IMG/VR virus record: IMGVR_UViG_3300006802_000391
Location: 1 to 28,793 of that record
Reading direction: 5' to 3' (one strand)
DNA length: 28,793 bases
Source of the DNA: a virus
The notes under the pieces were generated by a model that was given only the letters and a program-made list of their open reading frames with translations, made no database searches and was not told the DNA's origin. Positions 2,508 through 28,233 of the stretch are shown piece after piece. How positions within the stretch are numbered: the first letter of the stretch is position 1; each line of letters starts with the position of its first letter. The translations under genes and the position numbers were made by a program.

Positions 2508-5204
2508 CTAAGATATCTGTACGTATGTGTTGCCGGGATTAAGAGTTATACCATAAAGATTATACCCCTCCGCTACATACCCCGCAGCAGGACTATCTGG
2601 CTCTAAATCAACCGTAGTTTCTGTTATGTCTTCAGACGATAAAGTGGATAGAAGCGATGAATCGTTACCAGTTTTAAATGTGGTCGGCTGAGAGGCAGAA
2701 GACCTAACGGCAAACCACCAAGCTTTTGGAACAGAATCGGAATTCGTAATATAACCGTCTATTGTTTTGACTTGGTTTCCAAGCTCTGTTACGACAGATG
2801 AATCAAAATCATTTGTATCTACAATATCCGCTCTAGACGGAGGGTTAGATTTACTAGTTGTGAATATATAAAAGCTAGGATAAGTAAATGAAGCAGATAT
2901 ACTACTGTCGCTAACCACTCGTTGTGTAGTGTATTCCGCTCCGGTTACAGTACTAGGTCTAGTAAAGTCTGTTGTAGCAGTAATAGTTCTGCCGCTATTA
3001 TTATCTTTATGTATTGGCGTAGTAAATGTCATCGTTCCATCATCACTGGAATTACTAAGAGTACCCTGACCCGTGGTAATTGTAGTAGAAGCGTTTGAAG
3101 AGTTAGACAATCCAGTGATTGTTAGATTATAACCGACAGAGGAGTATGATTGTAGGAAATTATTTCCAGTTAAATTATTGAATGATATTGAGCTTGACGC
3201 GCTTTGCCAACTAAAAGAAATAGATGCCGTTTCTGAAATAGTGCTATTATCTTTATCAAGAAAGCTAACAGTCGCACTAGCAGATCCACCAGACAGGTCA
3301 GATGTAGAGGAGTAAATTGGAGAGTCTCCATCAACCGTAAAGGTCTGTGTCCAATCAACCCCTCCTGCGGGTGTTACTGAAGGACCGGTGGTGGTATATA
3401 AAGAAACATCCGATGTTACAGAACCAACAACGGAAGTTAAAGTAGATTTAACACTATTTACATAATTAGTTGTAAAGTCTGAAGGGTTGTCAACACTAAC
3501 TGTCCACTGAGAAACTGGCTGATCCCAATATCTAGACTGACCATTTGCAGAAACAGACGGGCTAAACTGAGCAACTTCTAATTGAAACAACCCATCGCCA
3601 TTTATAGAGGCAGTTCTAACTGTCTGCTCAGTACCATCTGCGTCGATAAATATTGTATTGATTCTGTACTGATTATCTCCACCACCAACAATAAACTGCA
3701 TACCAGATGGATCTGGCGTTGAATTCACAGCTATTCCAGAAACTGTAACTATATCCGATGTATTTTGTGTAATTTGAGGTTGGAGCGCACCACTAACTGA
3801 TAAAGCACTGTGGTCTTGAGAATCTACATAATCTCTAGCCCACCCAGAGACAGCAACCGCACTATGATCTTGAGAGTCAACGTAAGATTCTGCCCAACCT
3901 GAAACGGCAGTTATTTGTGATTCGTTTGTATCTACTCTTGACTCAAAATAACCAGAAATAGGCGTATCGTCATAAGAATCAGACAAAAGACCTGAAACAG
4001 TAGCTATATCTAGAACGTTTTGTTCTGCGAGGCCAGAAGCGTATGTGGCGACTCCAGAAACATAGCTATCATCATCCTGAGTTAAAAATGTAGCCTCTGC
4101 CCACCCAGAAACAGCAACCGCGCTGTGATCCTGAGAGTTAACATAAGATTCTGCCCATCCAGAAACCGCTAGAATGTCTGCTTGATTTGCAACCGCCTGA
4201 CCACTACCGTAAACCGCAATGCCGGAAACATAGTTAAGTTCAGTAGTTGTAACATCGCCGCCAGTAGCAGCTAAGCCGCTTACAGCAACAATGTTTGCCG
4301 CATTTTGATCTATAAGATATCCACTTGAAGACGGCAGGGCCGCAGATGTTTGGATTGTTCCATCTGCAAAATTTACTGCGCTAAAAATACCTGTTACACC
4401 AGAGACATTACCCAAGGTGTTAAAATTACCTTCAGCGTCAACACTTGCTTTTTCGGTAGTTGAAACATTCCAAGTTTGAAGGTTTGCTACATGTCCAACT
4501 CCACCTTCAATAGATAAAACATCTTGAGATATATCAGCATTTTTAATATTTAGACTATCTACAAATATTTCACCACCATTTTCTTTTAAGTGAATAATTG
4601 TAGTTAATTGATGAGATATTTTAAATCCCTCTTCATTTGCATCTCCAACTTCCAAAGATGCTAAAGAACTGCCATTTAATTCAACAAAACCTTCTTTGGC
4701 AGATATGTAACCATAATAAGGTTCTATTGAATCAGAAGCAGATGTTTTTAATCCAATTTTCCATTCTGGATCAAAACCTTCTTTTAGGAAAAAAGAGACA
4801 ACCCTAGAACCGTAATCGGTAGAAAACGCTTGCCAGTAATCTCCGTTATCAGATCTTTTAAAAATAAAGGGTGTTGGAAAAACAACGGCATTGTCGGCAT
4901 CTTTATAGACAATCCTATCAGCAGGAATAACGCAAAACACCGTAGAGGCGCCAGTCAAAGATATTTTGCTATCGGAATCAGAACTTTGTAAAACAGTGTC
5001 TCTGCTTAACAAACCTGATGAAAACGTACCAATACCGATTTCAAATCTATCACCGTTTTGAATACAGTAATAGGTTGTGTTGCCATTTCCTATGGCACTT
5101 GAGAATGTTTGGAAACCACCAAACGTAGCACCGCTAAGGGTCAGGGAACCAGTCCCCTCGGTAATAGTAGTTTCTTTAACTCTATCTGATATAATCAGCG
5201 CCAT
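2508..5204 (-). CDS. Large tail fibre protein with 'DRVKETT' N-terminal domain, 898 aa
   Basis: ATG start with AGGGA close upstream; it begins 2 nt after the glycosyltransferase stop. Residues 1 to about 105 (DRVKETTITEGTGSLTLSG, FQTFSSAIGNGNTTYYCIQN, SRDTVLQSS, CVIPADRIVYKD) are the widespread N-terminal domain of environmental phage fibres and probably attach it to the particle. The middle, about 290-480, carries VSG repeats with four copies of VSGWA[ER] and three of DSQDHSA, often YVDSQDHSAxxVSG. The last about 400 residues are Ser/Thr-rich and beta-strand-like, possibly Ig-like or tip domains. The SGW repeats are shared with the 1418-aa fibre upstream, so the two may be built from a common repeat stock. 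Fibre assignment is strong; receptor and exact location are unknown. Confidence 0.85.
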   Translation of the reverse strand: MALIISDRVKETTITEGTGSLTLSGATFGGFQTFSSAIGNGNTTYYCIQNGDRFEIGIGTFSSGLLSRDTVLQSSDSDSKISLTGASTVFCVIPADRIVYKDADNAVVFPTPFIFKRSDNGDYWQAFSTDYGSRVVSFFLKEGFDPEWKIGLKTSASDSIEPYYGYISAKEGFVELNGSSLASLEVGDANEEGFKISHQLTTIIHLKENGGEIFVDSLNIKNADISQDVLSIEGGVGHVANLQTWNVSTTEKASVDAEGNFNTLGNVSGVTGIFSAVNFADGTIQTSAALPSSSGYLIDQNAANIVAVSGLAATGGDVTTTELNYVSGIAVYGSGQAVANQADILAVSGWAESYVNSQDHSAVAVSGWAEATFLTQDDDSYVSGVATYASGLAEQNVLDIATVSGLLSDSYDDTPISGYFESRVDTNESQITAVSGWAESYVDSQDHSAVAVSGWARDYVDSQDHSALSVSGALQPQITQNTSDIVTVSGIAVNSTPDPSGMQFIVGGGDNQYRINTIFIDADGTEQTVRTASINGDGLFQLEVAQFSPSVSANGQSRYWDQPVSQWTVSVDNPSDFTTNYVNSVKSTLTSVVGSVTSDVSLYTTTGPSVTPAGGVDWTQTFTVDGDSPIYSSTSDLSGGSASATVSFLDKDNSTISETASISFSWQSASSSISFNNLTGNNFLQSYSSVGYNLTITGLSNSSNASTTITTGQGTLSNSSDDGTMTFTTPIHKDNNSGRTITATTDFTRPSTVTGAEYTTQRVVSDSSISASFTYPSFYIFTTSKSNPPSRADIVDTNDFDSSVVTELGNQVKTIDGYITNSDSVPKAWWFAVRSSASQPTTFKTGNDSSLLSTLSSEDITETTVDLEPDSPAAGYVAEGYNLYGITLNPGNTYVQIS

Positions 5205-5205
5205 A

Positions 5206-6255
5206 TCAATCCCTGTTATATAAGTATTTCGCTTCTCTTACAAAAGAATTATACACTATTTCATCAAAATTATTGTCCGTAACAAAATGTTTGTAGACGG
5301 GAGACAAATCTAAATTTAACTCTGTGAATTCTAGAATATAATTTCTTAATTTGTAAGAAGTTTCTAGTGGGTATGTAGGAGGATTTACTCTTGCGAATCT
5401 GTGCAACCACATTAAAAATGGTAAACAGTAGGTTTTATTGCCAGATTTTCTAAATTTTTCGTGTATGTAACACTCTTCCCCTCCAAATCCTCTTACGTGC
5501 TGGTTATAGCCAAGCCAAGCATCTTTTCTAACAAATAAACATCCGGTACCCTGACCAAATATTTCAAATGGTTCCTCCGAACCGTTATTAACTGCTAGTT
5601 TAAAACCATTATCTACCAATGATTTAACTGGGTCTTCTTCGTCAATTTTTAATTCACATTCGCATATTGGAGATTTATCGTAAAGTTTTGAATCTTCTAC
5701 AGACCTAAATTTAAATCCATCTAGCGTTTGCTTGACATCAAAGAAAAATTTATTACACTTACACCTCCAAGCTGTGGACCAGCTACCCCACATGCCTTCG
5801 CTCCACACGTCAACGAAATGTGTATAAAAATTGTTAAGGTTATCATAAACTAACGGGCCGCTGTAAAGATCGTTGGTGTTAGGATTTTCGTCCATAAACT
5901 TAAATATCTTGTCAATAACCCTTGCGACCGGACAAAGTAACACATGACAATCTAAAAGTAAAACAAATTCACCGTTTGCGCTTTTTATTACTTCATTTTT
6001 TGCGATACCAGTACCCTTAGTGGACACAATATTATAATTCAAACTACCATCTATTGACAGAGTATTAATTACAAATTTTTTAAGTTCATTGGCGTGTCTG
6101 CTTGTTTTGTTGTTTTCAACTATAACAAATTCTATTTGATCTAATAAATCTTTTCTTCCATTAAATATTAATTCTTTTCTTATGTCTTGAATTGTAAACC
6201 ACGCGCCATCAAAATCATCATGATGAGCGAATCCTATCGAAAGTCTTTTCTTCAT
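5206..6255 (-). CDS. GT-A family glycosyltransferase (GT2/GT27-like), 349 aa
   Basis: ATG start with strong AGGAGG that overlaps the stop of the Cys-rich gene before it. The N-terminal GT-A fold shows FVIVENNK (about 43-50), GTGIAKNEVIKSANGEFVLL (81-100) and then the metal-binding DxH motif as D102-C103-H104. DxH rather than DxD is the form found in polypeptide GalNAc-transferases (GT27) and their relatives. The acceptor-side motif GFGGEE (256-261) followed by F-R, a Cys-Leu-Pro and H285 parallels the WGGEN...H region of those enzymes. No signal peptide or membrane helix is seen, so it is a soluble enzyme. Sitting between a poly-Thr adhesin and a fibre, it probably glycosylates virion proteins, or less likely host surface material. 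The enzyme class is well supported; donor and acceptor are inferred. Confidence 0.85.
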   Translation of the reverse strand: MKKRLSIGFAHHDDFDGAWFTIQDIRKELIFNGRKDLLDQIEFVIVENNKTSRHANELKKFVINTLSIDGSLNYNIVSTKGTGIAKNEVIKSANGEFVLLLDCHVLLCPVARVIDKIFKFMDENPNTNDLYSGPLVYDNLNNFYTHFVDVWSEGMWGSWSTAWRCKCNKFFFDVKQTLDGFKFRSVEDSKLYDKSPICECELKIDEEDPVKSLVDNGFKLAVNNGSEEPFEIFGQGTGCLFVRKDAWLGYNQHVRGFGGEECYIHEKFRKSGNKTYCLPFLMWLHRFARVNPPTYPLETSYKLRNYILEFTELNLDLSPVYKHFVTDNNFDEIVYNSFVREAKYLYNRD

Positions 6256-6263
6256 CTTTCCTC

Positions 6264-7268
6264 CTACGGTAATTCTATCTTCCTAGTTATCTGCACACCT
6301 TGATACGGAGCGTAAACTGCATAAATTTCGGTTGCGCAGCAGTAAAAATCTAAGTAAATGATATCTGGAGACTCTGGTGTATATTCCGAGAAATATGTAC
6401 TAAATATTGTTGATATAGACGTATTGCCATAACTAGTAGAGGCAGAAATATTACTCTCAACAATGTTTTTGTCTGGACATTCTGACAAGTCGGATTTTAA
6501 GCACCCGTAACCACCAGCGTAACTACCGTTAACAAAACCCCATTGATTAGGGGCAGTGTACTCATATTGATATGTAGCTCTAAAAGCTTGGAGCGTTTCG
6601 CACTCCGAGTCGCATGGTGGCAAGGTAGTGGTCGTTGTTGTGGTGGTGGTAGTAGTGGTAGTAGTTGTGGACTCCTTGTCGCAACAACACGGAGTCCTAA
6701 CGAAGTCTCCATTAGATTGATTTAGCGATAGTGGTGGGCAGTTTGGTTTAAGATTACATTCGCCGCCCTGCGGACAATTAGAATAAGTTAGTTTCCAGTA
6801 TCCATTCCCATACTCTTCCGGTGCCGTAAAGTCATATTCAACAAATGTATAGTGACATGAGTTATTTTCTTTCGGTTCAAGACAAGTTAGTTTATCTAAA
6901 TCAGAACAAGAGCATGGAGATACTCGTGGCGGAGCAGTTGTTTGTTCTTGTACGCATGGGCTAGAGCAGTTTGCTTCAGGGTTAAATTCTCTCTCTGTTA
7001 AAAACTGTATACCGTTAATTATATATATTTTATTAAGGCACTCAGATCGAGTCAAAAAGTCTTCACAAAATCTAATATTAGGATTTTTTCTTGGTCCGTA
7101 ACAACATCGACCTCTTTTCTTTTGTGGGCAGTCGTCAATACTGTAGACGCAAACGCCACCAAGACTCTCGCAGTCAGACCTAGAAACTCCAGTTGTCGTA
7201 TTGCCGTCGATGCAGCAGAACTCACACCCCTTATCTGAATTACTTGTTATGGAAAATTTATACGTCAT
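6264..7268 (-). CDS. Cys-rich virion protein with 15-threonine linker, 334 aa
   Basis: I start at the ATG at 7268 (MTYKFSITSN), preceded by AGAGGTGAT, rather than upstream at 7328. It overlaps the previous gene by 11 nt. Residues 15-130 hold Cys modules: CEFCCIDGN...C...GGVC, and RGRCCY followed by spaced C residues. Short Pro/Thr linkers and a CCC cluster (194-196) follow. Residues 201-215 are fifteen threonines in a row (bases 6624-6668), ending in LPPCDSEC. The C-terminal about 115 residues are aromatic, beta-rich and have only a few Cys. There is no signal peptide. The layout suggests a two-domain, disulfide-capable adhesin or fibre tip joined by a mucin-like linker. It shares the RG[AR]CCY module with the preceding gene. 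Virion location comes from context only. Confidence 0.75.
   Translation of the reverse strand: MTYKFSITSNSDKGCEFCCIDGNTTTGVSRSDCESLGGVCVYSIDDCPQKKRGRCCYGPRKNPNIRFCEDFLTRSECLNKIYIINGIQFLTEREFNPEANCSSPCVQEQTTAPPRVSPCSCSDLDKLTCLEPKENNSCHYTFVEYDFTAPEEYGNGYWKLTYSNCPQGGECNLKPNCPPLSLNQSNGDFVRTPCCCDKESTTTTTTTTTTTTTTTLPPCDSECETLQAFRATYQYEYTAPNQWGFVNGSYAGGYGCLKSDLSECPDKNIVESNISASTSYGNTSISTIFSTYFSEYTPESPDIIYLDFYCCATEIYAVYAPYQGVQITRKIELP
6624..6668 (-). repeat. Poly-threonine tract (15 Thr codons)
   Basis: Forty-five bases encode 15 consecutive Thr using all four codons (ACC six, ACT five, ACA three, ACG one). The mixed codons argue for selection on the protein rather than recent slippage of a DNA microsatellite. 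It forms the linker of the Cys-rich virion protein. Confidence 0.95.
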
Positions 7269-10200
7269 AGAAATCACCTCTATAAATCTGAACCTTGATA
7301 GGGGAAATGGTTCTGTATCGAGTGCCATAGTCTTTAGGAAGCTGATGTCTCTTAATGTATTTATTATCTATATTTGGCGTTCTCCAGTAAGGATTGTCTG
7401 GAAGATCTATATAGCCTCTCTGAGAAAATACGGGATTATATGGGTATTCTCTCTTTGAAACATTTGAAATTATATTATCATTAAAATTAACAGTCGTGTC
7501 GTCAACTCTATATATATACATAGAATAAAGAAGAATATCTACATAATCATATGGATATGGAACTCTCATCTCAAGAACCACACGTCCAGAAATTGGCTCT
7601 ACAATATCCTCGACTGGCACTGAAGCCGTGTAAATGTATGGGTTTGAACCTGCACTTGTTCCATCAGAAAAGTAACCAGCAGCTACTCCGTCAACCCTTA
7701 CTTTATATTGATAACTAGAGTTAAAGTTGTGACTTCCGTCGATCTGAAAATAATCTAAAAACAGGAAGCACTTTCCATCGCTTGTAACCTCTCCTCCAAA
7801 TATAGATGGAGAAATAATAATTTTATCACCTGTTCCGACCTTGGGGTAAAGCGTCCTGTCATTTGGACCTCTCGCAAAAGGTGCTTCTAGATTTGGAAAC
7901 AAATCGTTACTATCCCTGTAGCAGACAGACCCAATATTAGAAATCGGGTTTGGTTCAACTATGTCAAGTAACTTAGAACTAATGGTAGAGTTTGTATTGG
8001 TATAGGTTTTACCATTAATTTGAACGGATTCTGGTGGAGCGCATAGGTTTTTATCGGAAGCTCTAAAGGTGTTGATATAGACTAACCTCCCATCGGTATT
8101 TCTAACATAGATGCCACAACAAGATTGGGTATTAGGGGTACAATCCAAAGGTGAGTTAACAACCGAATTCGGAAAATCAGAAGAATAAACCCCATCTGTA
8201 GGTATTCTAGTTTCTCCTGTTAAGTGATCGCACTGAAGTAGCGTCGTGTTGCACCTTGTCCCACACGCCTCGAAAGCATAATCATATTGACCGGGAATAA
8301 ACACTATTGGGTAGGGATACTTATTATTAACAAACTGAGAAATAGATTCATAAGTTGAGATGCTAGGGTCTTGACCGTAAAGACTCCTCTGGTAAAGCGA
8401 CTTTTCTTCTCCTATGTAATTAAACACAGATCCATAGTTTTCATTAAAAGCTAATGGAAATAATTTTTCTTGTACAACCTTAAAGTTTTCAGTGCTAGAG
8501 GAATAATGCCCCGTATTAGAGTATCTACCCAAAACAATTGCGTCTGTTTTTCTAAAAACCGATATTGTTTGTGTTTTCTTTGATTCAAAAACCGTTTGCT
8601 TTTGATCGAAAGGGAAAGAGAATGTAGATCCAAGCCTACAGTCAATTACATTTTCAAATGTGTAAAGTTTATAAACACCATCTGAACCCTCTATGTCGGA
8701 AACTGTAAAATATGGATCTGTCGAGGTGCTTGGTAAGTATCCAGAATCGTTACCTTCTTTGAAGCAGATTTCAAGTTTATTGTCACTATATAATATAGCG
8801 TAACATTCCTCTGCACCAAATATGTCTATTACATTATCTATGACTTTATTGGTCAAATACGAATCAGAAGAAGATGTTGAATCGAGCGAAACATTATTAA
8901 AGTAAGATTTATTTCCACCGTACAAGTTTTTATTTAAAAATTCGATTGAACATTTACCATTGTCCCACAATATTATTATATAGGAATTAGAGTCAACCGC
9001 TTTTACTACAGAGGAAGCTCCTTCTGGAATATTAAATTCTCTATTATGTCCATTTATATGTTTTCCACAAACCCGATACGTAGAACTACCGAGTAATAAA
9101 AAATTGCTGTGTAGTGGTATGACTTTTTCTATACCTATAAATAAATCTTGGTAAGAAGCAAAACGATTAATTATAATAAGGAGGTTTTGGGTAGCACGGC
9201 TATTAGTATTGTAATAGCTTTGATTTCTAGATATACCTAAAACAGATCCTTCTTTAGATTCAGAATTGTAAACAAAGAAGTGTTCGTAGGATCTATAGAT
9301 ATCTGAATAAGTATTGGTTGATACTAAAAATGTTGAATTATTAGTGGTTACTCCTTCTGTTCCACTTTGGGCGTATATGCCAGCACCATAAACAAGTTCG
9401 GCAACACTATCTTCAAAAGAAAACGGTCCTCTTGAGGAGTTTATAAACTTATATTCACCCAAGAAAAATAAGTCTCCACCAGAATCTCTATCGCCAAAAG
9501 ACGTAGGTTTGCCATCTTTTTTTAGAACCAAGAAAGCTTTATTATTAGCTATGATCCCAGACGCATTTTCAATAGAATTTATATTATCTATTCTGTTTTG
9601 TACGAATCTAAGATCGTTATCAATATAATCTTGACTTACATTTAGTGGTATATTTCCGATATCACCGGTGGCGAGTGGACAAGCCCCATTTGTGTACGAC
9701 CCAATCGTAAAAACTTTACCGCGCTTAGAAGCGTCAAAATGCGATTCGTCGTAAATAGCGGCTATCGCACCACAAAGCTCTTTACCTTCAGTTGAAGTCA
9801 TAGCAAAATCTTTAAACTTAGAATCAGTCCAAGTTTGGTTATTAGCTTTGAAGTCTTGATCGTATGCTATAAGTTGATGTTCGCCTCCAGCACGCGGATC
9901 TGGAAAAAGTCTTTGAAACGTTTTATAAACATAAGCGGGATAAAAAAATTCATATGCGTTTTTAATATAAAGCGTTTTATCGGAACGTAGCGAAGCAAAG
10001 GAAAATGACCTGTCTGAATCTTTAGTTGTGGACCATATTCCGTCTGTTCCTAACCGATCCCTCTTATAAGCGTATAAGCTTCTATCAAATAATATTTGAT
10101 CTTTTAAGTTCCCCTGTAAAAAATTAGAACTGCTATAGAGTTGCCTCTGGATTTGTTCACCAACATATAGTATGTTTTCTTCATTTAGAGATGCTTGCCA

Positions 10201-10464
10201 GTAGTAGTAGTCATCATTAGATTTAACAATATAAAAATCATCACCTTTATATATATTGACAGGAGAAATAGAATCTCCTTCTCTAGCGCATATGATTTTT
10301 TCTCCGCACGCAACCTCTGAAGAAAAACTACTCTGATTGTATTTTGTGAAACAATCTATCTCTAAGACACTATTTGCGCATCTCAAAGAACCCAAGTCGT
10401 CTATATAACAACAGGCTCCGCGAGGTGGTGGATCTGGCGGCGGGGTGCAGCAGCAATCGCCCAT
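7258..10464 (-). CDS. Large Cys-rich / RCC1-like virion protein, 1068 aa
   Basis: The likely start is the ATG at 10464 (MGDCCCTPPPDPPPRGACC), with GGAG 8 nt upstream, 1 nt after the stop of the 1418-aa fibre. An alternative start at 10509 would overlap that gene more. Residues 1-60 are Cys- and Pro-rich with a CCC triplet and an RGACCY module. From about 215 on, beta-propeller-like blades recur: GAIAAIYDE...GKVFTIGS (232-256), KAFLVLKKDGKPTSFGDRD (309-327) and, later, IIILWDNGKCSIEF and AILYSDNKLEICF. These follow the RCC1-type pattern of a buried strand, 'DG', then a W/F-G turn. The C-terminal third has more Cys (CCGIYVRNTDG) and a jelly-roll-like region. Its context makes it a host-recognition protein. 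RCC1 similarity is read by eye, so moderate confidence. Confidence 0.75.
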   Translation of the reverse strand: MGDCCCTPPPDPPPRGACCYIDDLGSLRCANSVLEIDCFTKYNQSSFSSEVACGEKIICAREGDSISPVNIYKGDDFYIVKSNDDYYYWQASLNEENILYVGEQIQRQLYSSSNFLQGNLKDQILFDRSLYAYKRDRLGTDGIWSTTKDSDRSFSFASLRSDKTLYIKNAYEFFYPAYVYKTFQRLFPDPRAGGEHQLIAYDQDFKANNQTWTDSKFKDFAMTSTEGKELCGAIAAIYDESHFDASKRGKVFTIGSYTNGACPLATGDIGNIPLNVSQDYIDNDLRFVQNRIDNINSIENASGIIANNKAFLVLKKDGKPTSFGDRDSGGDLFFLGEYKFINSSRGPFSFEDSVAELVYGAGIYAQSGTEGVTTNNSTFLVSTNTYSDIYRSYEHFFVYNSESKEGSVLGISRNQSYYNTNSRATQNLLIIINRFASYQDLFIGIEKVIPLHSNFLLLGSSTYRVCGKHINGHNREFNIPEGASSVVKAVDSNSYIIILWDNGKCSIEFLNKNLYGGNKSYFNNVSLDSTSSSDSYLTNKVIDNVIDIFGAEECYAILYSDNKLEICFKEGNDSGYLPSTSTDPYFTVSDIEGSDGVYKLYTFENVIDCRLGSTFSFPFDQKQTVFESKKTQTISVFRKTDAIVLGRYSNTGHYSSSTENFKVVQEKLFPLAFNENYGSVFNYIGEEKSLYQRSLYGQDPSISTYESISQFVNNKYPYPIVFIPGQYDYAFEACGTRCNTTLLQCDHLTGETRIPTDGVYSSDFPNSVVNSPLDCTPNTQSCCGIYVRNTDGRLVYINTFRASDKNLCAPPESVQINGKTYTNTNSTISSKLLDIVEPNPISNIGSVCYRDSNDLFPNLEAPFARGPNDRTLYPKVGTGDKIIISPSIFGGEVTSDGKCFLFLDYFQIDGSHNFNSSYQYKVRVDGVAAGYFSDGTSAGSNPYIYTASVPVEDIVEPISGRVVLEMRVPYPYDYVDILLYSMYIYRVDDTTVNFNDNIISNVSKREYPYNPVFSQRGYIDLPDNPYWRTPNIDNKYIKRHQLPKDYGTRYRTISPIKVQIYRGDFYDV

Positions 10465-10465
10465 T

Positions 10466-13400
10466 TTAAACTCCGCTACAAGAGTTGTATATCGGTCTGT
10501 ATTCTCCATTTACAAGTGTGGCTACAGCAAATAAGCCACCGCTTATGGATAAGTAATAGTCTCTGTTTGTTAAGTAAACTTCGTAATCTGAATTAAATTG
10601 ATCATTTTTAACTATCATTCTACCGCTAGTTGGATTATTGTAAGATGAAGCTGACAATAGCTGTTCTGACAAAAATCCTTCTATCGTTGTCGGTCTTGTC
10701 CAACCTAATTTTCCACGAGACTGATAAATATAATCGCCAGCGAAAACAATCGCTCCGCTGTTGGCTGTAGATGAGGGTATTGAAATTTTAAGATCTGATA
10801 AAGATTCGTATCTAGGAGTTACTAGATATCCGCTTGCATTTACAACGTCGTGATAAGCACCCGTATTTGCAACAAACTGTCCAGAGGGGTCGTTTACGTC
10901 AGATATTCTACTTGTAATAACCTTATCGAAATGCCCACTACCATATGTGTGAATAACATTATTACTATCTATTCTTACACCGCTAGTGGCTTTATATACG
11001 TCGATATTGTCTAATAAACCACCTACACCGCTGATTTCATTTAAATCGCCATATATAACATTATAGTTATAATTATTCCAGCCGCTATGACTTCCGAATT
11101 GGCCGTCTACCCCGGAGATGGCTTCATGTGAGTATTCAGCCCATCCGCTTACATTTCTAAGAAGTCCATTAACACCAGATATTTTGTTATGACTATAATC
11201 AGCCCAACCGCTAACTAAAGCTGTGTAATCATTGTTAGCACCACTAGAAAGCAAAGTATAGTTTTCGTTCCAGCCGCTAGCTTGATAGAGAAGACCTCTT
11301 GGGTCGTAGCCGGAAATCTCTAATAACTGGCCGCTTATCCAATGTCTATGTCTATCTAATATTTGATCTCTTGTTTGGTTGATTGAAGCGTATAATAACC
11401 TTCTATTAAGATCGGTATGCTGGCGCTGAATCTCGCCGTCAGCAATCCCGGAAATGGCTAGAAGCTCTGTTCTCATTATTCCAGATAATTCTGATAGAAC
11501 TCCAGATAGAGGGCTTGCGTCTAAGGTAAATGTTCCCTGAGAGTCGTCAAATGCAAGTGAAACATCAATACCCTTTGCCCCAGTAAGGTAAACTGTCTCA
11601 TTCGGTTCTACCTGAAACGTGGAAACTCCGTCCGAAGCGTTCCACCAGCCATAACTATCTGCTTCTAAAAACTTACTTGATATTTCTTTATCTAGATATC
11701 CACTCACGCTCCAAATTAAACCGCTTGGACCGTAAATCGTTGTGTCAACGCCAGACAAAGTTGATAGATTATACTGAACCCATCCGCTAATATTATCGGA
11801 TGTTTCTACCGCTCCACCGGGACAGTTTATGTCAATTAGGCAATCTAGTCTACTTGTTACAGAATCTATCTTGTCTTTCAAGTATCCAGATAGACTACAG
11901 GCGGAAACCTCTAAGGTGTCAGCCTCAGACACTAAAATGTCCACGCCACACTTGCCGTCTATGTTTATTACATCCCCACCAACTATTTGTTGGTTATTTG
12001 TGCGGTCTGAAATATTAAACGAGAATATGTTACCTTCTGCTCCAGCAGCTGCAAATCTTCTATCTAATATACCCCCGACACCACTAATCTCAAGTAAACC
12101 ATCTACTGTTAATCCAGATAAAGAAGAAGCAGAAATTTCTAAATTAAATAAACCTTCTTCATTTCTAAAGGATGTTTCTAAGCCATCTTTTCCTGTAAAG
12201 TTAACAGTTCTTTTTGTGCCAATAGCCTGTGGTCCATCTCTATCAGAATCTAAGAACCAGTGAGTATACTGAGACTCACCGTTTGGAAATGTGATAGCAT
12301 TAATTTGATCTATCGTGTACTGCTTGTTCCAACCGCTAGCTAAATATATAAGACCGTCTGGAATTCCAGATAAAGTATTAAATGTTTGATAAGCCCAACC
12401 ACTAGTTAATGTTAGAGTGCCATCTTTTAATCCTGAAACTTTATTTATCTCTCTAAGCAGCGTTTCTCCCGTGGTCTGTATATTACCTGTAATTACACTG
12501 TCTTTTGATGATGCATCTTCGTTAGCCGCTGTTAATGTTTCTATCGCCGTCGCCCTTATAGCACCGGAGACAGATCCGTTAAAGCCAGAAATGCTAAGAA
12601 ATTGTGATTCGTAGTATCCGCTAACAGCTTTTAATTGTTCGACTAGCTGACCAGATAGCCCAGACGCGCTAATAGCCAATGTGTGAAATGTTCCATCTGA
12701 ATACAGGTGCGTGTTCAAGCCGCTAACACCACTTATAAATACGTGTTCAGCAAATCTGACATTTGCACTGCCTTCGTTTTCTCCGTCTATATTCCAATAT
12801 GTGTAGGAACCAGCATCCAAAGTGACCTGATCGGTATAAGATCTTGCGAATCCACTAACCATGTATATCAAACCGCTTTCACCAAATTGACTTCTGCCAA
12901 CTCCAGACAAAGATTCAAAATTACTAAATGTCCAACCGCTGGCTTGGTCTGTATAATTCTCATTATGACCGCTTACGCTCCAGATGATACCGCTAGCCCC
13001 ATATTGAGAATAAACCGGACTGTGTCCGCTTATGGCAAGAGTATCTATAAAAGACAAAGCGTAAGATTCATCGGCTTCATTTCTTGCTATATCGCTAGCC
13101 CACCCGCTAATTAAAACAGCGCTAGCTGTAACCTGCTGATCAATGATGCCGCCGTAACCACTAATTTGTGTGAACACGCCAGAAGTCCAACCGGACAGTG
13201 GATGTGCAGACACAGATAAATTATAAAAATTAGTATTTCCAGCGCCCTCGTCTATGATCATTCTTGTTTCAATGCCGCTAACACCGCTTATCCTAAGCGT
13301 ATCAGCGTGATGGATCATTCCAGAGGCGCCATGTTCACCCTCTATTTCCCAAAACGTAAAACTACCCGCATCAAACACGGCGTCATCGGTGTACTTTTTA

Positions 13401-23893: not shown

Positions 23894-24138
23894 GGTGTCT
23901 CGATTTTAATTATTCTTACATCATAAAATATATCTTTTATAAATTCTAAAGTTTCCACAGAATGGTCTGACCTTAGTATTTTACTCGCGAGTTTATGCAT
24001 AGCTTTATAACACGCGTCGTCTGGATCATTCGCTTCTACAAAGATTATGGGCGATGCGCTATTATAGTCTTCTAGATCATATTTTTTTAATCTAGATATA
24101 ACTAAGGTTAGAATCATATGTACTTTGTAAATTTTCAT
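23890..24138 (-). CDS. Small protein of unknown function, 82 aa
   Basis: Overlaps gmd upstream and HNH downstream by ATGA on both sides, which supports it as a real coupled gene. The pattern KIYKVHMILTLVISRL (strand), IIFVEANDPDDACYKAMHKL (strand then helix) and IKDIFYDVRIIKIETP (strand) suggests a small alpha/beta ferredoxin-like fold. No catalytic or metal residues stand out, and I do not recognise a family. Its place suggests a packaging or nuclease accessory protein, but that is context only. Confidence 0.7.
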   Translation of the reverse strand: MKIYKVHMILTLVISRLKKYDLEDYNSASPIIFVEANDPDDACYKAMHKLASKILRSDHSVETLEFIKDIFYDVRIIKIETP

Positions 24139-25136
24139 TGTATATCATGTTGTACCATCATTTTAACTAAGTCCTCGAATGAATGTTTAGGTGTCCATCC
24201 TAGTTTGTTATTAGCTTTACTGCAATCTCCTCGTAGATAGTCAACTTCTGCTGGTCTATAAAACTCTGGGTCTTGAACTACATAGTCAGACCAATCGTCA
24301 ATACCAACCTCTTTAAATGCAACATCTAAAAATTCTCTAATAGTATATGTGCGTCCTGTGCATATTACATAATCATCGGGACAGTCTTGCTGTAGCATCA
24401 TCCACATCGCTTCACAATAGTCTCCTGCGTATCCCCAATCTCTATATGCGTCAAGATTACCTAATCTAAGTTTTGGGAAGTCAGCACTTTTTCCACTTTT
24501 TACAAATTCTCCGATCCATTTTGTAATCTTTCTCGTTACAAATTTTTCTCCTCTTCGTGGTCCCTCATGATTAAATAGAATACCGGCACTAGCATGTAGA
24601 CCATAACCCTCTCTATATAACCTAGTCATGTAGTGAGCGGCACATTTAGCAATAGCATATGGACTTTGAGGTAGGAATTTAGTTTCTTCGTTTTGGTATT
24701 TGCTTTCAGATGTCATGCCAACCTGTATGTCGTAGTTGCTACCAAACATCTCACTACTACTTGCTTGATAAAATCTTGTGTTCATCATCTTTAAATCTAC
24801 GATGCTTTGTAAAATATTTAAACAGCCTTTACCTGTGATATCCCAAGTTAAACCCGGTTGATTAAATGAGACCGCAACATGGGATTGCGCGGCAAGGTTA
24901 TAGACTTCATCTACTTGACCGTGATAACTTAAAGTATTTAAAACGCTAGATTGGTCCGTAATATCTCCTTCAAGTAATTTAAATCTATTGTTATCATGAA
25001 GGTGTGAAATACGTGTCGTGTTATCTGTACTGGTTCTTCTTGATACACCATAAACGATGTAGCCCTTCTCTAGCAATAGATCCGCCAAATGACTTCCGTC
25101 CTGTCCCGTAACGCCGTAGATTATAGCTGTCTTCAT
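24135..25136 (-). CDS. gmd: GDP-mannose 4,6-dehydratase, 333 aa
   Basis: ATG start with AAGGAC upstream, 1 nt after the small-terminase stop. It is an extended short-chain dehydrogenase: NAD(P)-binding GVTGQDGS (8-15), YNLAAQSHVAVSF (79-91), the active-site loop SSSEMFG (126-132) with E129, the catalytic Y160-x-x-x-K164 in SPYAIAKCAA and the substrate motif FNHEGPRRGEKFVTRKIT (188-205). This is diagnostic for Gmd, which turns GDP-D-mannose into GDP-4-keto-6-deoxymannose, precursor of GDP-fucose, rhamnose, perosamine and colitose. At 333 aa it is shorter than the E. coli enzyme but complete. No reductase or aminotransferase for the next step is in the window, so the host or a distant phage gene must act next. 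Its place between small and large terminase is unusual. Confidence 0.95.
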   Translation of the reverse strand: MKTAIIYGVTGQDGSHLADLLLEKGYIVYGVSRRTSTDNTTRISHLHDNNRFKLLEGDITDQSSVLNTLSYHGQVDEVYNLAAQSHVAVSFNQPGLTWDITGKGCLNILQSIVDLKMMNTRFYQASSSEMFGSNYDIQVGMTSESKYQNEETKFLPQSPYAIAKCAAHYMTRLYREGYGLHASAGILFNHEGPRRGEKFVTRKITKWIGEFVKSGKSADFPKLRLGNLDAYRDWGYAGDYCEAMWMMLQQDCPDDYVICTGRTYTIREFLDVAFKEVGIDDWSDYVVQDPEFYRPAEVDYLRGDCSKANNKLGWTPKHSFEDLVKMMVQHDIQ

Positions 25137-27621: not shown

Positions 27622-28233
27622 ATGTTTTTTAGTCAGATGCGACAAGATGAAGCGGCAAACTATCTACTAAACAAGGATGGTGGATATTTTCTTGACATTG
27701 GGGCCGGTACCAACTGCGAGACCAACTGGAGACCACCCGGATACCATAGTGATACGCTATTTTTGGAGAAACAGAGGCAGTGGACGGGCATTTGCATAGA
27801 CTTAGAGCAGTACTGGGTTGACTCCAGTAAGCTATTTCGCGATTGCCATCTGGTGCAGGCGGATTTAATTAAAGAAAATATTAATGATATACTTGAAAAA
27901 TATAATTGCCCGAATATCATAGACTATGTGTCATTAGATGTGGATGCTGCTCAAAGTAAAGTTTTTAATGATTTCGACTTTGATAAATATAGATTTAGGT
28001 TTATGACAATTGAACATAACCTGTATATGTCAAAGAGCGATGATAGTCAGCTAGCCAAAGAGTGTCAGATATACAGAGATAAATTACATAGTTTAGGATA
28101 TCTAATGCTTTGTAAGAATGTTATTTTTGATAATCATGGGGCTGTTGAAGATTGGTGGGTCGATGAAGAAACATTTCAACGGCATAGCGACTTGGTGGCG
28201 TCTGACATCAACTGTAAGGACATAAAAATATGA
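27622..28233 (+). CDS. FkbM-type SAM-dependent methyltransferase, 203 aa
   Basis: ATG with AAAGGTGAT just upstream; the first rightward gene. SAM-binding motif I is FLDIGAGT (23-30), the acidic end of strand 2 is ICID (57-60), motif III is QADLI (79-83) and the motif-IV region is VSLDVDA (103-109). FMTIEHNLY (127-135) follows, a typical FkbM feature. The length fits the short phage/marine form of the family. FkbM enzymes O-methylate sugars or other small molecules, often in polysaccharide and glycan pathways. With gmd and a glycosyltransferase also in the window, methylation of a phage- or host-linked sugar is plausible, but DNA or protein targets cannot be excluded. Its opposite direction suggests expression separate from the structural operon. 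Confidence 0.85.
   Translation: MFFSQMRQDEAANYLLNKDGGYFLDIGAGTNCETNWRPPGYHSDTLFLEKQRQWTGICIDLEQYWVDSSKLFRDCHLVQADLIKENINDILEKYNCPNIIDYVSLDVDAAQSKVFNDFDFDKYRFRFMTIEHNLYMSKSDDSQLAKECQIYRDKLHSLGYLMLCKNVIFDNHGAVEDWWVDEETFQRHSDLVASDINCKDIKI

Follow-up and report, generated by a model that had tools for sequence, protein, structure and literature searches.

Phage-encoded glycosylation of virion proteins is already known from mycobacteriophages where, in the passages of PMC12363180 and PMC12619734 that cite Freeman et al. 2023, glycosyltransferases (GTs) of Che8, Corndog and Myrna modify capsid and tail-tube proteins at their C-termini. These passages mention neither pairing with a threonine tract nor a GT27-like enzyme. 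At the level of the enzyme, the nearest described proteins by predicted fold are the GT27 polypeptide GalNAc-transferases, including human GalNAc-T2 and Toxoplasma gondii GalNAc-T3; the latter holds Mn2+ through Asp276, His278 and His414, and is described as efficient on stretches of Thr (PMC11074326). The open-access literature yielded no account of poly-threonine, GT27 or mucin-type glycosylation in phages, which is weak evidence of absence.

The locus and its predicted glycosyltransferase

The window is the whole stretch analysed here, a 28.8-kb linear fragment of an uncultured tailed phage (IMG/VR IMGVR_UViG_3300006802_000391) whose minus strand carries head genes, those for terminase and a cement protein among them; window features given below lie on that strand unless indicated. 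Within the tail/fibre gene region, a 334-residue Cys-rich protein (6264–7268), the presumed substrate, contains 28 Cys and 39 Thr, with exactly 15 consecutive Thr at residues 201–215 (6624–6668) that are written with all four Thr codons (ACA three times, ACT five, ACC six and ACG once). The next gene (5206–6255) encodes a 349-residue protein that we assign as a GT27-like GT-A glycosyltransferase from an AlphaFold model, PDB fold matches and the detection of PF00535 in its relatives; its AGGAGG Shine-Dalgarno sequence (6260–6265) precedes the enzyme ATG and overlaps the TAG stop of the Thr-tract gene. The same arrangement, including a 15-Thr run, is present in the near-relative locus L002. The first-pass annotation of this DNA had correctly read the Cys-rich protein, its 15 Thr in four codons and the overlapping ribosome-binding site, as well as the DCH, GFGGEE and distal His motifs discussed below, but its label of “adhesin” finds no support: searches of the Thr protein and its neighbors with PHROGs, NCBIfam and Pfam return nothing informative, and this is a Cys-rich tail/fibre-region protein with no family match.

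Upstream of this pair lies a 1083-residue Cys-rich protein (7258–10509) that has CCY/Cys motifs in common with the Thr protein and no family match above cut-off, while downstream of the enzyme is an 898-residue fibre-like protein (2508–5204) whose DRVKET-type start recurs after the enzyme in near relatives (L001–L009, L013, L021 and L024–L028). A non-adjacent GDP-mannose 4,6-dehydratase (24135–25136; PF16363, E = 4.8e-115) is a possible source of nucleotide sugar for the enzyme. We reject it as proof of a GDP-sugar donor because only 12 of 23 related contigs carry a gene of this kind and because other dehydratases match the model too. On the plus strand, a 203-residue ORF (27622–28233) containing GGYFLDIGAG resembles an FkbM-type methyltransferase by eye, with no Pfam match.

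The enzyme carries DCH at residues 102–104 (5944–5952), a predicted metal-binding DxH motif, GFGGEE at residues 256–261, of which GGEE (258–261; 5473–5484) aligns to the GT27 GGEN loop, and His285 (5401–5403), a predicted third metal ligand that aligns to the His of VGHVF in GT27. Among 122 phage and bacterial homologues, D102 and H104 are found in 121, the remaining one having a gap; E260 is present in 121, E261 and H285 in all 122, and W283 and F287 are also invariant or near-invariant. An hhalign comparison of a wider family profile with three GT27 sequences pairs DCH with DxH, GGEE with GGEN and H285 with the third metal ligand at 75% probability, a figure that, like the corresponding E-values, describes a single pair and a small GT27 set and is not database-calibrated. 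An insertion at residues ≈165–206, which the window enzyme shares with its closer relatives and which L040, L043 and L046 lack, contains CxC and CxC/CxxC pairs and may be a metal knuckle.

Sequence searches give only GT2-type matches, so that sequence alone would point to GT2. These are the only matches that Pfam and NCBIfam see for the enzyme; PF00535 matches 38 of the 38 family members scanned at E ≤ 0.01 (best, 1e-14), with the window enzyme itself, at 21.6 bits, slightly under the 23.3 cut-off. Phmmer and profile searches of PDB sequences with the enzyme recover no GT27 chain at E ≤ 1 and only weak GT2 fragments, PF11397 (GT60 polypeptide GlcNAc-transferase) matches neither the window enzyme nor family alignment A1, and tblastn queries with the window enzyme and the L109 homologue find no match in 50,697 cultured phage records.

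The predicted structure is closest to GT27. An AlphaFold model built from 38 relatives (mean pLDDT 91.9) gives polypeptide GalNAc-transferases as the best Foldseek matches in the PDB (6nqt, E = 5.8e-14), and upon realignment with VIA-align the first 29 PDB entries are all GT27 (Z 19.4–23.2 over 254–273 residues, rmsd 2.8–3.5), with T. gondii GalNAc-T3 among the closest, although similarity of a predicted fold fixes neither donor nor acceptor. The next fold family is chondroitin polymerase (Z 18.6); this enzyme, RmlT, GlfT2, WrtF, B4GALNT1 and LARGE1, all lower in the list, were set aside as reflecting the common GT-A fold. Weaker fold matches include phage proteins named “Glycosyltransferase, GlcNAc”.

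A ricin-type lectin domain at the C-terminus is usual, not universal, in GT27; we find none in the window protein or the relatives scanned. The phage enzyme resembles human GalNAc-T2 and T. gondii GalNAc-T3 in its predicted GT-A catalytic fold, in DxH and a distal His that profile alignment places in register, and in a GGE loop, but differs from GT27 in its low identity (10–16%), in having GGEE for WGGEN, in the missing lectin domain and in its expression in the bacterial cytoplasm. Alignment A1 has FGGEE with F, GG and EE invariant and contains no W or N at these positions, and similarity to characterized GT27 enzymes appears in the pairwise hhalign comparison only, and in neither the phmmer nor the profile searches. 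The GT27 identity proposed in the first-pass annotation thus stands as regards nearest fold, which the 29 best PDB entries bear out, and a near-invariant predicted D/H/H metal site, and falls as regards strict membership. Since WGGEN, the lectin domain and a sequence-level GT27 match are all absent, we classify the modeled enzyme as “GT27-like” and leave it outside CAZy GT27. A protein clearly GT27-similar by sequence (E = 7e-32 to GalNAc-T4/T2) is encoded at L394:2487–3206, on a 148-kb viral contig; it is outside the window's family, hhalign of A1 against it gives no significant match, and the product of the gene next to it resembles, by eye, a UDP-galactopyranose mutase.

Pairing of the enzyme with threonine tracts

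Relatives of the enzyme are found at 46 IMG/VR loci with a single-sequence search and at 401 with a profile, to ≈33% identity; a quick tree places the window enzyme within a phage-only clade. We then scored neighbors as Thr/Ser-rich if they contain at least 13 Thr/Ser per 20 residues, and find that such a gene is immediately adjacent to the enzyme in 37 of 52 phage loci (non-redundant at 80%) and within two genes in 40, keeping in mind that ORF selection can lose overlapping neighbor genes in the locus counts of this and the second enzyme family described below. Counted per gene, 38/100 neighbors are Thr/Ser-rich at distance one, 5/87 at two, 2/75 at three and 0/158 beyond (Fisher p = 1.8e-20 for 38/100 adjacent vs. 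2/233 at three or more genes). Many of the Thr-rich neighbors are also Cys-rich. The Thr-rich gene is upstream in some loci and downstream in others, and the remaining neighbors vary, a pattern that speaks for a link in function and against mere preservation of gene order.

This association, though strong, has exceptions. By the threshold used, 12 of the 52 loci, several of them from close relatives of this phage, have no Thr/Ser-rich gene within two genes; loci that miss the threshold include the window relatives L005, L171, L172, L174 and L175, as well as L001, which does so despite an 8-Thr run. A search of the contigs without a tract for a run of 7 Thr found none in most of them, and most are fragments. 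In the reverse direction, an enzyme-independent scan of IMG/VR for any 11-Thr coding pattern (120 loci) recovers a window-family enzyme in five, three of them directly adjacent, which is far above the background of this family (≈400 members among 2.9 million contigs). About 80% of the poly-Thr genes in this unselected sample (L050–L169) have neither this enzyme family nor the second nearby in the sequence covered, and these tracts may be served by a third enzyme family or by a host enzyme.

Two neighbor proteins have additional features. The neighbor at L013:2471–3370 contains a 19-Thr run together with a run of ≈25 Ser, and the Thr/Cys-rich neighbor at L021:2524–5886 contains what appears by eye to be a Hint/intein-type segment (CFIGDSPVLMADGSYKRISEVSVGEKV...HNC).

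We consider it likely that the two genes encode an enzyme and its substrate, with the GT27-like protein glycosylating the Thr tract of the adjacent Cys-rich structural protein of the assembled particle. The model rests on what was observed: a predicted fold closest to GT27, an active site that hardly varies and a pairing that is conserved across loci. The metal-dependent enzyme would act in the host cytoplasm during structural-gene expression, taking a sugar from a nucleotide-sugar donor and adding it to the hydroxyls of the Thr tract; this sugar might be GalNAc, GlcNAc or a GDP-derived 6-deoxy sugar. The product would be a short, stiff, sugar-coated linker within the assembled particle, and could provide stiffening, protease protection, masking or adhesion. 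O-glycosylation of Thr as the reaction, and the presence of its product in the virion, are what we infer from this model. The first-pass annotation had proposed such a pair, and the co-occurrence in phage genomes that it proposed to look for is seen in the 37 loci, with the pairing kept over large sequence distances; it had also counted homologues without a Thr-rich neighbor against the pair, and roughly a quarter of the loci are of this kind. Its wording of “mucin-type” glycosylation, with GalNAc as the sugar, is not supported as stated.

The acceptor might instead be another protein, either the downstream fibre-like or the upstream Cys-rich one, modified at scattered Ser/Thr. A fibre-like gene does follow the enzyme in many relatives, and relatives that lack a Thr run retain a Cys-containing neighbor, e.g., L004 and L007. 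We nonetheless regard this reading as unlikely, as it is the Thr/Cys-rich gene, and not a fibre gene, that lies beside the enzyme in L010, L014, L018, L020 and L022, and the Thr tract is the feature that recurs over all clades.

A further reading, in which the enzyme is a GT2 that modifies the host surface (LPS, capsule or teichoic acid) in the manner of serotype conversion and the Thr neighbor is incidental, is consistent with the GT2-type database matches and with a statement in PMC12619734 that phage glycosyltransferases modify host serotypes. We judge it decidedly improbable, given a fold and active site that are GT27-like, a position inside the structural module with no adjacent flippase or membrane GT gene, and a Thr neighbor that is kept while other neighbors change.

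The enzyme–tract pairing is also seen at some loci in bacterial genomes. Among 97 relatives in bacterial genomes, some of which are probably prophages, 15 of 141 adjacent genes are Thr/Ser-rich vs. 0 of 259 at four or more genes, and several loci (e.g., L243, L269, L275 and L286) encode a short protein with an RR-type start and a Thr/Ser-rich tail. Several bacterial homologues (L228, L233, L234, L244, L248 and L265) are fused to, or lie beside, PqqD-type peptide chaperone or HprK-related kinase A domains; these belong to the same GT family as the phage enzyme and some are beside Thr/Ser-rich tails, but they differ from it in being mostly cellular and in having peptide-chaperone-type partner domains. 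These bacterial genes are possibly a cellular protein-modification cassette. In distant relatives (L030:6004–8025, L033, L036, L046:5998–7767 and L220:5983–7932), the enzyme has an extra C-terminal domain of ≈250–330 residues, recognized as Methyltransf_24 in L046 and L220, where the added sugar is perhaps methylated.

A second glycosyltransferase family in cultured phages

Scanning the neighbors of poly-Thr genes exposed a second GT family (members include L077:3898–4812, L050:2–1117 and L380:3004–3912), which is within three genes of the tract in 13 of 95 usable poly-Thr loci and adjacent to it in 11. D101, D103 and H256 are invariant, and a structural model (pLDDT 97.3) adopts a GT-A fold like that of glycogenin, LgtC and UGGT, with Z up to 14.4. 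A search of IMG/VR with the family's own sequences finds at least 595 relatives, and an adjacent gene is Thr/Ser-rich in 28 of 34 non-redundant loci compared to 4 of 170 control genes, the seed sequences having themselves been taken from poly-Thr loci. It shares with the window family a GT-A fold and a gene position close to a Thr tract, often in the structural module; it differs in having DxD rather than DxH and a glycogenin/LgtC/UGGT-like fold, there is no detectable relationship between the two, and they do not co-occur, as the second family is never found together with the window family in the poly-Thr loci and is absent from ten window-family contigs.

This second family is present in 74 cultured-phage records, where it is annotated as hypothetical or as “prophage pi2 protein 34”. 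In all 15 records inspected, a Thr- or Thr/Ser-rich tract lies no more than six genes from the enzyme, and in this set the tract is often located at the very C-terminal end of the major tail protein or the capsid protein. The major tail protein of phiFL1A (gp50) ends ...TTTTTSTTTTTTSSTTTTTTTQASSK and is followed by the enzyme (gp51), that of Lactococcus phage 1706 (orf13) ends ...TTTTTTTTTTHHD with the enzyme (orf14) again next, and that of VPE25 ends ...TTTDTTTTTTTTTTAGK; in CHPC836 and 4995_1, the Thr tract is at the C-terminus of a capsid protein. Major tail or capsid genes with a C-terminal Thr run in second-family genomes include L380:2348–3004, L385:1738–2475, L386:5141–5758, L384:4629–5237, L390:1208–2485 and L392:1337–2497. 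The weakest of the 15 cases are Planchet and the TTVAP- and TETQT-type tails of 521B and LP65; the annotation of LP65 gives the gene two upstream as a structural protein detected by mass spectrometry. We find it most likely that the two families have one role in common, the O-glycosylation of Thr tracts in virion proteins. The C-terminal glycans of mycobacteriophages provide a precedent for the location predicted here on tail and capsid C-termini.

Might the tract be a replication-slippage repeat or an unglycosylated linker that came to lie beside the enzyme by hitchhiking in a variable tail region? Many phage poly-Thr genes indeed have no such enzyme nearby. In 75 runs of at least 7 Thr, however, identical neighboring codons number 151 compared to 214.1 expected from shuffling, and at least three different codons occur in 67 of the 75; this alternation above chance indicates selection on the amino acids, with DNA that avoids perfect repeats. 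As the same adjacency is also seen in two GT families that have no detectable relationship, we assign this explanation a very low probability. Glycosylation of phage DNA bases is the most remote reading and can be set aside, since although phage-encoded DNA glycosyltransferases exist (cited in PMC12619734), no base-modification gene is recognized among the window genes scanned, the enzyme is encoded among structural genes and its fold is nearest to protein-modifying enzymes.

Threonine tracts as candidate glycosylation tags

The pairing of enzyme and Thr tract is well supported on comparative and structural grounds and is broader than first stated. We describe the system as a new variant of phage protein glycosylation, GT27-like in its enzyme, directed at threonine tracts and predicted in its chemistry; phages that carry the pairing probably glycosylate proteins of their own at threonine tags built into them. 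As PMC12363180 and PMC12619734 describe it, mycobacteriophage glycosylation shares with this proposal a phage-encoded GT, virion proteins as targets and modification at C-termini; the present enzyme is encoded in or near the structural module. The first-pass annotation's statement that it knew of no bacterial-virus counterpart must therefore be narrowed: phage virion glycosylation was already known, and it is the enzyme–tract pairing that appears to be new.

On balance, we favor the more general view that tailed phages encode Thr homopolymer tracts as tags for sugar attachment, and that these are acted on by two or more GT families, unrelated, mutually exclusive and independently recruited, one GT27-like with DxH, the other glycogenin/LgtC-like with DxD and found in many cultured phages whose hosts are lactic acid bacteria, enterococci or staphylococci. 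If this is true, bacterial viruses would carry out mucin-like protein glycosylation on C-terminal tails and linkers of major tail, capsid and tail-region proteins, giving a concrete function to the poly-threonine tracts that are common in phage proteins and a name to a family of “hypothetical proteins” encoded by many cultured phages. It predicts sugars at the C-termini of major tail or capsid proteins in known laboratory phages. A GT27-like enzyme in bacterial viruses would also bear on the origin of mucin-type glycosylation and on the production of Thr O-glycans in bacteria, and virion sugars may influence stability, adhesion and recognition, and thus the behavior of these phages in nature.
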